From assembly GCA_003116975.1 (NCBI GenBank), contig BGKB01000039.1, positions 1-64,000 on the forward strand: 64,000 bases of DNA, written 5' to 3'. The position numbers and the translations under genes are program-made. This DNA is from Aurantiochytrium sp. KH105 (Eukaryota > Sar > Bigyra > Thraustochytrida > Thraustochytriidae). The notes under the pieces are model-generated. The model had not been told where the DNA came from. It saw only the letters and a program-made list of their open reading frames with translations, and made no database searches. Positions 37,857 through 46,386 of this stretch are shown in pieces; the stretch's first letter is position 1, and every line of letters begins with the position of its first letter.

Positions 37857-40800
37857 TCAGTGTTCACTGCCGCTGACAGAGTGGGACGAGTCCGCTTTTT
37901 GCTGCGCCGCAATGCGCCCCTCCAGCGCAGAAACCTGCTCCGAAAGCCTCACAACCAAACCTGTAAGGTGCTCGATGGCGGCCTCGTTGCGGAGATTCAT
38001 CGTGTCGTCCATCACACTCGCCTGGCCCGGGACAACGCCGTGCAAAGCCATGGCATCGTTCATGTCGTCCACCTCTTGCTGAATCTGGCCCTCCAGAGTC
38101 GAAGTGTGCCGCTTGAATGACTTGGCCCGACGCCGGACCCCCGCAGCCGCCGAGGAAGAGTATCGCGTGCTCTCGCCAACCGAATTGCCGTCCGCAAAGG
38201 CGTGCTCTCCTGGGCCACCAAGTCCGGAAACGCCTCCCACCGCCGATCCTGGAGCCGGGGGCGAAGCTTCAAATTCATGCTCGTCCTCCTGCAAATCCTG
38301 ACGCGACGAAACACTCGAAAGATCCGCAGCCGCGTACGGTGGCGGTGGCGCAGCTCGCTGGAGGTGAATTGCGCTCTGCATGACGCGGTCCGCTGCAATT
38401 CGCTTCGGGTTCCGTTGAAAGTAACCAATACGCACCAGCTCTTCTTCGACGCCGGTGCGCATTGCCGAAGTCTCGGAACTCGCACGACGTTTCATATTGT
38501 TTGCAACCGAGCTTTCTGCCGAAACGTACGAGCTCGCAGAGACAGAGGCGGCCTTGGGAGCCAGTCTCTTATGACGAGGTTCGCTTTCAAAGGTGCCCCA
38601 ACCTCGCTGCTGCGAGCTCTGCCCGTGCAACAGCCCAGCGCTTTCCTCTCGTTGTACTGCATTCCCGGGATACACGCCATTGAACGCGGCCAAGTCCTCG
38701 CTCTCGACGCTGTCCTCTCCATCGTCAAGGCCCTCAGTGTCAGACTCTGCTTCACTCTTGCTAATCGAAGTGCTGCGCCGATGCAGCGCCTCGTTGTTGA
38801 GCGCCTGCTGTGCAATGCGCTGTTCGTCAGCCTCGACTTCTTGAAAAAAGGATTGAGTCTCTTTAAGTTCAGGCCAAAGGAATGATGGCGAGCGCCGCAG
38901 CTTCTTCCAGCGACGAAAGAGCGTGTACCGAATCGAGTTGTATGTCGGGGCCTTGCGCCGGATGAGATTGACCGCGTGCAGCCACTCTGCTGGAACCTGG
39001 ACGTCGACCTGGCCATTGCCCTTTTCGATGACAATGTTTTTGCGCGTTAGCTCCGGCAAATAGTCCCCCACGTCGTAGTTATCGCTCGTTCGCCCGCAAC
39101 AACGGCGATATCGCAAACACAGCATTTTATACATTTTGTTGAGACTCTTCTCGCGCAGATCATACGTAAGGATGATGCGCGCGCGTTGAAGCAACCACTG
39201 CTCCTTGGCATTCTGCTGAATCTCGTCAAAGGTGTTGGTCATGATAGCGATGATGAGATTGAGAATGACGAGCGCCACAACAACCATGTAAATGCCCACG
39301 AAAAAGTATCCCGAGTACTTGCGAAACACCTTTTCCTCATCGTTCAGAGCGCCAACGTCCAGATTAAAGACAAAAAAGTAAAGAGTGATCCAGCTGTTGT
39401 ACATGGTACCGTACAGCTGCGAGCCCGAGCCACGAAAAATGAGCGTAATGGCATGACTGAACCCAGTCACATAAATGAGTAGCACCACCAGATAAATGGC
39501 GATATCGGCGAGCATGCGACGAATCGTGCACATGGTGATGCCGATCACCTCAAAGCCCTCCGCAAAGCTCAAGAGGCGAATCCACAAAAGCACGGCGCCC
39601 ACCGCCGACACCAAATTGGAAGCGTCGCGAAAAAGGGTCACGTCAATGTGTGTACTCACGGTCAATCGTAGCAACTGCTCGAGGAGGACACAAATATGTG
39701 GAAGCACATCTGTGAAAGGGTCGGAGTACACGTTAACGCCCCGACCACGGCGGAGACCTAGCTCGATGAAAAATCGAACAAGATGCCGTACGTTGAGCGC
39801 AAAGACGACCAACTCGAGGGCAGCCTGCGTCGCGTGTACGCCGCGCCGTTCTCCCGCGCCGAGGGTCAGAAACGCCTGTGCTTGCACAAAGCAATGCCAA
39901 AGATCCTCCTCCCCGTATAGCGTGGTGGCAAAGAAGAAGGCAACAAAGATACAGTGGACAGCGAACTCAAAGAGAAGGGCCTCGCGAGTAAAGAGGATCC
40001 ATCGAATATTGAAGATCCACTGCACCACCTCGTGGGAAATGAGCTCGTGGCGCTCATCCTGCACCATTTTGTCGAGAATTTCATTACTCGTCACGGGTCC
40101 GCCCGTGAGCAAAGTGTCATAAGAGTATATTTTGTCGTTTCCTCGCGCGTACAAAAAGGTACGCTGCCGATCGAGCATGCGCAGCGCAAGCTTGGGCCGG
40201 TCACGGACCATTACTTCGAAGAATCGAAAGTAGAATTCATCCGTGCGCGCCTGCACCAGGTTCGTGACACCGTCGTCGCTCCACGAGCTCGCCATGCTGG
40301 CACTGCGCGCATGCTGAGCCACCTCGGAAGCGAATCGCAACCGCTTGGGGCCTCGCATCATCTCACCGAGTCCACCGGCCCCACTATTTGGTCGGTTTTC
40401 GCGTAGGTCACCTTTAAGTACGCGCTGACGCACAAGCCGCCAGCGCTCGCGCGCGTCGACCCTCTTGAGCGTAGAGTTGATACGCTCTTTCGTGTCTTGT
40501 CGCTCCAAAATTGGTGGAAGCGGGTCGATATGCCCAAGAAGCGGCGCGGGCATCCCGGACTCTACATCAGTGCGGGTGTCGATGCCGAGCTCGACTTCGC
40601 GCTCCCGTCTCTCCTGAAGCTGACGCTCGAGTTGGTGCTGCTTGAGAGAACTGCTTGCCACAGGCGCGGCAACGTCGCTCGCCGGATTGTTCGATCCCAT
40701 GTCAATACTATCTTGACGCTGTAGAATCGGGTCCAGTGATCCGTAAATGTCAAATTCGGGGCGAAAAATGTTGAAGCTGCTCGATGCTCGCAGGCTTGCG

Positions 40801-41498
40801 CTGTGCGAGACATCGAGCAAATAAGAGGCAACTTGCAGGTGGAGATCATCGTCCGGTTTTGAGGCCGCGGCCTCGAGGGGAATTTGGCCGTCGCAGTTGA
40901 CAAGGTCGAGACGAGCGCCCGAACTTACAAGCAAGCGAGCCACATCGAGCGAGCACACCATGTGGAGCGCGGCGTTGCCGCTGTCATTTTGGTGATCAAT
41001 CTTGGCGCCCGCGCGCAGCAAAATCTGCACGGTCTCGGCGCAGTCTTGTACGACGGCCCAATGCAAGGGCGTCGAGTGGTCTACAGTTTGCGCGTTAACG
41101 CGCGCTCCGCATTTCAAAAGGTAGCGCACCACATGTGGCGCACTGACGAGTGTGTGCAGAGGGGTCTGTCCCACGGCGCCCTGGAGGTCCACGTTAACGC
41201 CGTGGTCGACGAGCGCCTTGGCGACCTCGACGCTTGCGGCACGGTGCAGCGGCGACTCGCCAAAGGTTGGTTGGCTTCTCCGAAAGTCGAGACGGCTCGC
41301 TGCGCCAGCGTCCATGATCTTGAGTAGACTCTTGACGCGTCCAAGGTTTCCCTCGACTGCCGCGTCCAAGAGGTCCACGAAGACCTCGGTCTCGTTGCTG
41401 TTCATGAGGCTCTCATTCTCGGTCGGGGGCATCGAGGCCGAAGGTCCGAGGCCTGCCGACAGCCCGGCGGTCAGGCTCGCTGCCGCGGCCTCCATCAT
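37857..41498 (-). CDS. Ankyrin-repeat TRP-type cation channel
   Basis: An intronless 1213-residue membrane channel. Residues ~40-230 hold ankyrin repeats (GESPLHRAASVEVAKALVDHG; GQTPLHTLVSAPHVVRYLLK; HSTPLHWAVVQDCAETVQILL). Six membrane helices lie at ~500-760: IFNIRWILFTREALLFEFAV to the last, VGIYMVVVALVILNLIIAIMTNTFDEI, whose ending matches the S6 and TRP-box approach of TRPV/TRPA-like channels. A pore-region segment is around YNSWITLYFFVFNLDVGA. The ~450-residue C-terminal tail is Ser/Glu-rich with a short coiled coil (LTGLVVRLSEQVSALEGRI). It would pass cations at the plasma membrane or cilium in response to chemical, thermal or mechanical cues; selectivity is not predictable. Confidence 0.9.
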   Translation of the reverse strand: MMEAAAASLTAGLSAGLGPSASMPPTENESLMNSNETEVFVDLLDAAVEGNLGRVKSLLKIMDAGAASRLDFRRSQPTFGESPLHRAASVEVAKALVDHGVNVDLQGAVGQTPLHTLVSAPHVVRYLLKCGARVNAQTVDHSTPLHWAVVQDCAETVQILLRAGAKIDHQNDSGNAALHMVCSLDVARLLVSSGARLDLVNCDGQIPLEAAASKPDDDLHLQVASYLLDVSHSASLRASSSFNIFRPEFDIYGSLDPILQRQDSIDMGSNNPASDVAAPVASSSLKQHQLERQLQERREREVELGIDTRTDVESGMPAPLLGHIDPLPPILERQDTKERINSTLKRVDARERWRLVRQRVLKGDLRENRPNSGAGGLGEMMRGPKRLRFASEVAQHARSASMASSWSDDGVTNLVQARTDEFYFRFFEVMVRDRPKLALRMLDRQRTFLYARGNDKIYSYDTLLTGGPVTSNEILDKMVQDERHELISHEVVQWIFNIRWILFTREALLFEFAVHCIFVAFFFATTLYGEEDLWHCFVQAQAFLTLGAGERRGVHATQAALELVVFALNVRHLVRFFIELGLRRGRGVNVYSDPFTDVLPHICVLLEQLLRLTVSTHIDVTLFRDASNLVSAVGAVLLWIRLLSFAEGFEVIGITMCTIRRMLADIAIYLVVLLIYVTGFSHAITLIFRGSGSQLYGTMYNSWITLYFFVFNLDVGALNDEEKVFRKYSGYFFVGIYMVVVALVILNLIIAIMTNTFDEIQQNAKEQWLLQRARIILTYDLREKSLNKMYKMLCLRYRRCCGRTSDNYDVGDYLPELTRKNIVIEKGNGQVDVQVPAEWLHAVNLIRRKAPTYNSIRYTLFRRWKKLRRSPSFLWPELKETQSFFQEVEADEQRIAQQALNNEALHRRSTSISKSEAESDTEGLDDGEDSVESEDLAAFNGVYPGNAVQREESAGLLHGQSSQQRGWGTFESEPRHKRLAPKAASVSASSYVSAESSVANNMKRRASSETSAMRTGVEEELVRIGYFQRNPKRIAADRVMQSAIHLQRAAPPPPYAAADLSSVSSRQDLQEDEHEFEASPPAPGSAVGGVSGLGGPGEHAFADGNSVGESTRYSSSAAAGVRRRAKSFKRHTSTLEGQIQQEVDDMNDAMALHGVVPGQASVMDDTMNLRNEAAIEHLTGLVVRLSEQVSALEGRIAAQQKADSSHSVSGSEH

Positions 41499-44876: not shown

Positions 44877-45536
44877 ATGGCCGCCATGCCTGACCTCAGC
44901 TCTCTTAACACGCCCGCGGGCATGGGCAAGCTCAACGGCTTCATGAGCTCGCGCTCGTACGTGTCCGGCTTCGAGCCCTCGCAGGAGGACGTCAAGCTCG
45001 TCAAGGCCCTTGAGGGTGTCGAGGTTGACCAGAAGAAGGCCGCCCACGTCGCGCGCTTCCTCAAGCACATGAACGAATTTTCCGAGTCGGAGCGCTCCGC
45101 CTGGCCCGAGGCCGGTGCCGCCGCCGCTGGTGGTGCCGCCGAGGAGGAGGACGACGATGACTTCGACCTCTTTGGTGATGACGACGAGGAGGCCGAGAAG
45201 GCCCTCGCCGAGAAGATGGCCGCCGAGAAGGCCGCCCGCAAGGCCGGCAAGGGCAAGGGTGAGCGCTCGCTCATCGTGCTCGAGGTCAAGCCGTACGACG
45301 CCGAGACCGACCTCGAGGTCCTCGCCAAGGGCATCAAGAAGTTCGAGCACGAGGGTATCCAGAACTGGGGCAAGGAGCACAAGCTTCTTCCCGTTGCCTT
45401 TGGCATCAAGAAGCTCGCCATCTCCGCCGTCGTCTACGACGACCTCATGGGTGTTGACGGTCTCAGCGACCTCATCGAGGAGAAGTACGGCGACCTCATC
45501 CAGTCCATCGACGTCCAGGCCATGAGCAAGGTCTAA
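44877..45536 (+). CDS. Translation elongation factor 1-beta (eEF1B alpha/beta, GDP exchange factor)
   Basis: A 219-residue guanine-nucleotide exchange factor that recycles eEF1A-GDP to GTP. An N-terminal segment (FEPSQEDVKLVKALEGVEVDQ) matches the helical domain that binds the gamma subunit. A Glu/Asp stretch with FDLFG (EEEDDDDFDLFGDDDEEAEK) follows, the characteristic EF1B acidic region. The C-terminal GEF domain (RSLIVLEVKPYDAETDLEVLAKGIKKFEHEGI, WGKEHKLLPVAFGIKKL) ends in LIQSIDVQAMSKV; family members typically end SVDIVAFNKI-like. GC-rich, codon-biased sequence suits a highly expressed gene. The ATG at 44877 is the first that gives the normal length; the frame extends upstream to 44799 without conservation. 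Confidence 0.95.
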   Translation: MAAMPDLSSLNTPAGMGKLNGFMSSRSYVSGFEPSQEDVKLVKALEGVEVDQKKAAHVARFLKHMNEFSESERSAWPEAGAAAAGGAAEEEDDDDFDLFGDDDEEAEKALAEKMAAEKAARKAGKGKGERSLIVLEVKPYDAETDLEVLAKGIKKFEHEGIQNWGKEHKLLPVAFGIKKLAISAVVYDDLMGVDGLSDLIEEKYGDLIQSIDVQAMSKV

Positions 45537-45975: not shown

Positions 45976-46386
45976 TTACTTGTTGCTAAGCGCAAAGGCT
46001 TCTTCGAAGTCGCCAACCACGTTCGGGTCAGCGCTCGCGGGCAAGTGAAGCTTCACAAGCTTCCAGGAGTCCTTGTTGCCGCGAAGCATGCCCCAGTTCG
46101 AGTACTCGCGGCCGTCAACTTCTTTGCGCACCATGATGCGGATGCCTCGATGGCGTACGTCCTTGCCAATGATCTCCATCAAGTCGTCAAGAACGTCATC
46201 TTCGCCTTCCAACACCTGAATCAGCTCATCGGTGTTGACGTTGTGCAAAAGGACGCCAGAAACCTCACGCTTCCTGTTGTTGATGACAGACACCGACCGA
46301 ATTTTCTCCACGAACTCCTCCTCGTAGCCACGAAAGTCTGGCGGGATCACCAGCTTGGAGTGGTACACAATGCGCGTGAGAACCAT
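45976..46386 (-). CDS. Stand-alone BLUF-domain blue-light photoreceptor
   Basis: A 136-residue protein that is almost entirely one BLUF domain, which binds FAD and shifts its hydrogen-bond network on blue-light absorption. Key residues are present: Tyr8 (in RIVYHS, the flavin-side Tyr), Asn37 in INNRKREVSGVLL, Gln57 in LIQVLEGED, and the WxM pair Trp98 and Met100 in YSNWGML. Family markers RHRG and VLEGE also fit. The length is near that of PixD/BlrB-like short BLUF proteins, and the beta2-beta3 hairpin has two extra residues (NVNTDE). No effector domain such as adenylyl cyclase follows, so output must pass through a partner protein. A T-rich acceptor-like sequence (CTTTCTAG) directly precedes the ATG. 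Single coding exon. Confidence 0.9.
   Translation of the reverse strand: MVLTRIVYHSKLVIPPDFRGYEEEFVEKIRSVSVINNRKREVSGVLLHNVNTDELIQVLEGEDDVLDDLMEIIGKDVRHRGIRIMVRKEVDGREYSNWGMLRGNKDSWKLVKLHLPASADPNVVGDFEEAFALSNK

Follow-up and report, generated by a model that had tools for sequence, protein, structure and literature searches.

The question raised by this locus is whether a thraustochytrid possesses a blue-light receptor of the bacterial kind, made of a single BLUF domain, and whether the gene that encodes it is truly its own. The zoospores of thraustochytrids are flagellated. Phototaxis has been reported for Labyrinthula and Ulkenia, which are non-photosynthetic heterokonts, in the available text of PMC2781859. 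A bacteria-type stand-alone BLUF protein is seldom reported in eukaryotes. Our search of the accessible literature for BLUF together with thraustochytrid or Aurantiochytrium found no paper, and a search for BLUF with labyrinthul- found none that names a BLUF protein from this group in its available text. The window, that is, the whole stretch of DNA analyzed here, consists of 64,000 nucleotides of a contig (C39) of Aurantiochytrium sp. KH105. An initial annotation, made from the letters of this DNA, had proposed a stand-alone BLUF photoreceptor in it.

The gene and its domain

Translation of the minus strand gave one frame, which begins with an ATG at 46386, encodes 136 residues, and has a stop codon that ends at 45976. 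The initial annotation had placed the gene at 45976..46386; these limits were right, and we add to them the strand. The plus-strand frame across the same interval is likewise open. The positions of the features are listed in Table 1.

The Pfam profile of the BLUF family (PF04940) covered residues 3-100 of the protein with positions 1-91 of its 92, and the score of 66.2 bits exceeded the cut-off of 25. The E value of this match, 2.9e-18, excludes chance. BLUF homology, for which a profile search had been proposed as the check, is thereby established. When matches with E values of up to 1 were accepted, Pfam gave, beyond BLUF, just a sub-threshold match to MspI, and the NCBIfam search of the protein gave no match. 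Among the structures in the PDB, the sequence matched 5mbj, a bacterial photoactivated adenylyl cyclase, with an E value of 1.1e-6, and the BLUF receptors 2byc and 1x0p with E values of 4.1e-5 and 1e-4, respectively. The protein has 36 residues beyond the BLUF core and no effector domain. The earlier description of a single-domain form of 136 residues agrees with these data, that is, with one frame in which PF04940 alone scored above threshold. The results confirm that the gene in the window is an intact gene for a single-domain BLUF protein.

Table 1. Positions of the BLUF gene, its domain and key codons, its neighbor, and the separate host gene of the MOT7/TEX47 type
Feature	Position	Strand	Basis and remarks
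Stand-alone BLUF gene	45976..46386	-	136 codons and stop; translation, PF04940 (E 2.9e-18), one locus on two contigs
BLUF core domain, residues 3-100	46087..46380	-	PF04940 profile match
Tyr8 codon, expected electron donor to flavin	46363..46365	-	Translation; Tyr in 59/61 other BLUF rows, 2 gaps
Asn37 codon	46276..46278	-	Translation; Asn in 60/61, 1 gap
Gln57 codon, expected hydrogen-bond switch	46216..46218	-	Translation; Gln in 60/61, 1 Gly
Trp98, Gly99 and Met100 codons, last core strand	46087..46095	-	Translation; Trp in 59/61, Met in 58/61
EF-1 guanine nucleotide exchange factor gene, convergent neighbor	44877..45536	+	PF00736 (E 7.6e-23); outside the system
Host MOT7/TEX47-type gene	L011:1276-2007 (C10), L012:1276-2007 (C7)	+	PF24787, PDB match

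Conservation of the photochemical residues

The initial annotation had also stated that the protein keeps Tyr8, Asn37, Gln57, Trp98 and Met100. We compared the protein with 61 other BLUF domains, which came from records of bacterial genomes and plasmids, except for one viral contig; the host copies (L001, L002), the duplicates L026-L028 and two weak partial matches in L034 were left out of this set. All five residues were found at these very positions, and the columns of the 61-domain alignment are nearly invariant. Besides the gaps and the one Gly given in Table 1, the exceptions were one Tyr and one Phe at the column of Trp98, and Phe, Ile and Thr, one each, at that of Met100. In BLUF domains, the Asn belongs to the flavin pocket and the Trp and Met belong to the switch. 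The roles of Tyr and Gln in BLUF photochemistry are described in the available text of PMC9853863.

Evidence for a host gene

We searched the host assembly (76.0 Mb, 367 contigs) with PF04940 in six frames, introns being disregarded. The BLUF gene occurred twice, on C39 and on C29, and this search gave no match beyond these copies; that is, a single locus was found. Four BLAST blocks, with identities of 90.8-95.2%, align C29 collinearly with the window. The matches of other families searched in the assembly were mostly paired as well, and we therefore read the two copies as presumable haplotypes.

Of the 411 coding bases, 6 are different between the two copies, each of them a synonymous change. 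The probability that this occurs by chance is 1.2e-4 to 4.5e-4, when the synonymous share of random changes is taken as 0.22-0.28. For comparison, the copies of the EF-1 gene differ in 3 synonymous and 2 non-synonymous codons, and those of the TEX47 gene described below in 12 and 4, respectively. The substitution pattern of the BLUF gene shows purifying selection.

The EF-1 gene next to the BLUF gene shows that the context is eukaryotic. The codon adaptation value of the BLUF gene was 0.80, the fourth among 14 in-frame genes of the window; this figure is rough, because a misframed PP2C reading with 22 stops was part of the codon reference set and the starts of several genes were approximate. 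From the EF-1 neighbor and the collinear second contig with its six synonymous differences, we conclude that the BLUF gene of the window is a real host gene.

Proposed mode of action

We think that the protein probably functions in the host as a stand-alone BLUF photoreceptor, which signals through a partner. Its BLUF domain would bind FAD, as the domains of this family do. Under blue light, Tyr8 would give an electron and a proton to the flavin, Gln57 would then rearrange, and the hydrogen bonds around the flavin would switch. The change may be relayed to the protein surface via the strand that holds Trp98 and Met100, and the output would be an altered grip on a partner protein. Signalling through a partner is the most likely output, because the protein has no effector domain and extends just 36 residues past the core. 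The bacterial proteins PixD and BlsA signal through a partner. We infer the FAD binding, the photocycle and the partner signalling of the window protein from its family. As to the response served, our guess is that the light behavior of the zoospores is one candidate.

Other explanations of the gene

A BLUF fold may be kept for another job, for example as a scaffold or a flavin-binding regulator, by a protein that is no longer photoactive. The divergence of the window protein would fit this explanation: its branch in the tree described below measures 5.16 changes per column, its first loop is longer, and its C-terminal tail showed no similarity to a profile made from the tails of seven short bacterial BLUF proteins (-2.5 bits; 1496 of the 1556 scored shuffles, out of 2000 made, equalled or beat it). 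The unlike tail also counts against the photoreceptor reading, as do the identity of at most 34% to the relatives and the presence of other light-sensor genes in the host. In addition, the same genome offers a precedent for the loss of light function in its MOT7/TEX47 line. However, the five key residues are all kept, and there are zero amino-acid differences between the two copies. We therefore regard a protein without photoactivity as unlikely.

The gene might also encode the axonemal MOT7/TEX47 of the host, a tether subunit of inner dynein f, and the protein would then be mainly a structural part of the flagellum; this alternative had been overlooked in the initial annotation. The possession of flagella by the zoospores would suit such a role, and MOT7 itself is a precedent for a BLUF-domain protein of eukaryotes that carries no cyclase. 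Chlamydomonas MOT7, which contains a BLUF domain but no cyclase, is a component of the tether complex of inner dynein f and was reported as a blue-light regulator of that inner dynein, the map being too coarse for a flavin to be seen (available text of PMC10266980). TEX47 is the mammalian orthologue of MOT7, sperm-specific and axonemal, according to the accessible part of PMC11779644.

The window protein, however, had no Pfam match to PF24787 (TEX47) at E values of up to 1, and neither the Chlamydomonas chain 8glv_D9 nor TEX47 was among its 24 PDB matches with E values of up to 10. It also lacks the C-terminal part of about 100 residues that MOT7/TEX47 has, since it ends 36 residues after the core. 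Furthermore, when PF24787 was run against the host genome, it scored 35.8 bits (cut-off 25) on a gene distinct from that of the window, present on C10 and C7. The protein of this gene has 242-243 residues with a long C-terminal part, and Pfam gives TEX47 only. Its best PDB match was 8glv_D9, 'Inner-arm dynein f/I1 light chain' (E 9.1e-5, residues 59-234 of 242), and its match to TEX47 itself (9fqr_H0) was weak (E 0.41). At the five key BLUF columns it has Leu, a gap, Leu, Phe and Val, in an alignment that is unsure in places. Since a separate, degenerate MOT7/TEX47 gene is present in the genome and PF24787 gave no match to the window protein at E values of up to 1, we rejected the axonemal identity of the window gene, which we consider very improbable.

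The host genome thus holds one BLUF gene with intact key residues, that of the window, and one degenerate gene that fits an axonemal role. In one alignment, the Chlamydomonas chain 8glv_D9 has His in place of the photochemical Gln of BLUF domains, and canonical BLUF photochemistry in Chlamydomonas MOT7 seems questionable for this reason.

It was further considered that the frame is one exon of a larger gene, such as a photoactivated cyclase split by introns. The six-frame search of the genome disregarded introns, and the C29 copy is open in frame over 129 bases upstream of the ATG; both points leave room for this. But the domain already begins at residue 3, the stop lies 36 residues past the core, and no in-frame ATG occurs within the 129 upstream bases of C29. 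Moreover, the identity of the two copies drops to 91% in the 137-base bin before the ATG and, past the stop, is 96% in the first bin and 87% in the second (some bins farther from the gene show 99-100%), and 0 of the 37 matches of the cyclase family PF00211 in the host genome lie on C39 or C29. One possible splice pair, read by eye in the flank, joins out of frame, and the upstream exon was rejected. An exon of a larger gene is thus extremely improbable.

Bacterial contamination of the assembly might be thought of since short BLUF proteins are mostly bacterial, but its probability is negligible and we rejected it, for the gene lies among eukaryotic genes on two collinear contigs, its codon use is host-like (a rough measure), and the scans described below gave no relative among 77 pattern matches and later ones of about 34% identity over the domain at best.

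Returning to the photoreceptor reading, we may put forward a wider view, tentatively and as a possibility on the doubtful side. In this view, a flagellated protist may sense blue light by means of a flavin receptor of its own, a free BLUF protein of one domain that signals through a partner with no cyclase involved, and a second BLUF-derived gene of its genome (MOT7/TEX47) may have lost its light chemistry and fits a structural role in the flagellum. The intact stand-alone BLUF gene offers a definite target for deletion and its small product one for purification, and the presence of intact and degenerate BLUF-type genes in one genome permits a direct comparison of the step from a light sensor to a flagellar part.

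Relatives and origin

The window protein is far from all relatives found, none of which exceeds 34% identity to it (112 columns). A scan of genome contigs with the single protein gave no relative among 77 pattern matches, and a scan with an alignment of two sequences gave 42 relatives among 279 pattern matches, a sample biased by the two patterns used. No kin of the protein was found in the phage scan. The plasmid scan gave Paracoccus liaowanqingii as the sole close-kin candidate (32-35% identity), and the first and second viral scans for BLUF kin gave 0 of 56 and 1 of 91 matches, respectively.

The window protein fell in no starred group of a 62-row tree, in which 36 of the 59 inner branches were open and the bootstrap was unsettled. 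Two incompatible placements were imposed as constraints, one with 11 mainly plasmid rows (p-AU 0.539) and the other with ten mainly Chromatiaceae rows (0.536), and neither was rejected; these groups were picked after the tree had been viewed, and both constrained trees beat the free one. The tree fails to place the window protein and favors neither bacterial transfer nor old retention.

Other arrangements of BLUF genes were seen in the records. An 11 kb contig of a viral collection, IMGVR_UViG_3300022752_004856, carries a BLUF frame that is cut off by the contig edge (L029:1-336, L110). Its neighbors are a frame of 657 residues and one resembling an ATPase, which we take to be CobT- and CobS-like. 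Adjacent pairs of BLUF genes occur on a plasmid of Spirosoma oryzicola (L020:589-1461) and in an Anaerolineales MAG (L048:1917-2973).

Other light sensors and genes of the host

The host genome gave four matches to cryptochrome/photolyase, apparently two loci in pairs, and six to rhodopsin, apparently three loci in pairs. On C37, two of the rhodopsin loci occupy opposite strands at a distance of 3-4 kb, and this arrangement is mirrored on C105. An exact LOV motif was not found in the host genome, LOV proteins with other letters being possible. The BLUF gene is one of several possible blue-light sensors of the host; where zoospore phototaxis is concerned, the rhodopsins offer a strong alternative. 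The rhodopsin gene on C99 (L076:184-2241, minus strand) had channelrhodopsins as its best PDB matches, and its 686-residue stop-to-stop frame has a match to a MYND zinc finger at the end.

Some further genes were also observed. A frame on C72 matched the PfaA-type omega-3 synthase profile over positions 6-1035 (E 1.4e-278; 930 bits against a curated whole-protein cut-off of 1010), and the same profile matched weakly in 11 of 14 control genomes, in none of them above the cut-off. A second ketosynthase match, in a frame of 2081 residues, is located some 5 kb from it on the opposite strand, and C155 repeats the pair. The layout is that of thraustochytrid orfA and orfB and agrees with a thraustochytrid host, which the initial annotation had called probable. 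In the window, 37857-41498 of the minus strand encodes 1213 residues in a single frame; this large protein has ankyrin repeats along with a polycystin/TRP-type ion-channel domain (PF12796, PF00520, PF08016).

Comparison with known BLUF systems

The initial annotation had held that eukaryotic BLUF proteins are mostly fused to adenylyl cyclases. This view is incomplete, since stand-alone or cyclase-free cases were already known, namely Blf1 (PMC4831468), MOT7 (PMC10266980) and TEX47 (PMC11779644), as far as the available texts of these papers go. Blf1 of Ustilago maydis is a BLUF-domain protein common to its close relatives (available text of PMC4831468). Going by the description in that text, it is, like the window protein, a eukaryotic BLUF-domain protein of narrow distribution. 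In Acrasis kona, the genome is mildly enriched in BLUF domains (PMC11589745, available text).

The photoactivated adenylyl cyclases, such as Euglena PAC, Beggiatoa bPAC and OaPAC, have the BLUF domain in common with the window protein, and bPAC was its best PDB match (the structure with an E value of 1.1e-6 above). Unlike these enzymes, the window protein has no class III cyclase domain by Pfam, and a BLUF-cyclase fusion was found neither in it nor on C39 or C29. For Euglena PAC, transfer from bacteria was inferred in a 2009 review (available part of PMC2781859).

In form, the protein resembles the short bacterial BLUF proteins PixD/Tll0078 and BlrB, which share its key residues and consist of a single domain some 135-160 residues long; at 136 residues, the window protein has the single-domain length of the PixD/BlsA type. 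It differs from the short bacterial proteins in its domain identity of at most about 34% and its longer first loop. With MOT7/TEX47 (PF24787), it shares the character of a eukaryotic BLUF-type protein without a cyclase. However, the MOT7/TEX47 orthologue of the host has a long C-terminal part and has lost the five key residues, and the window protein is the opposite in both respects.
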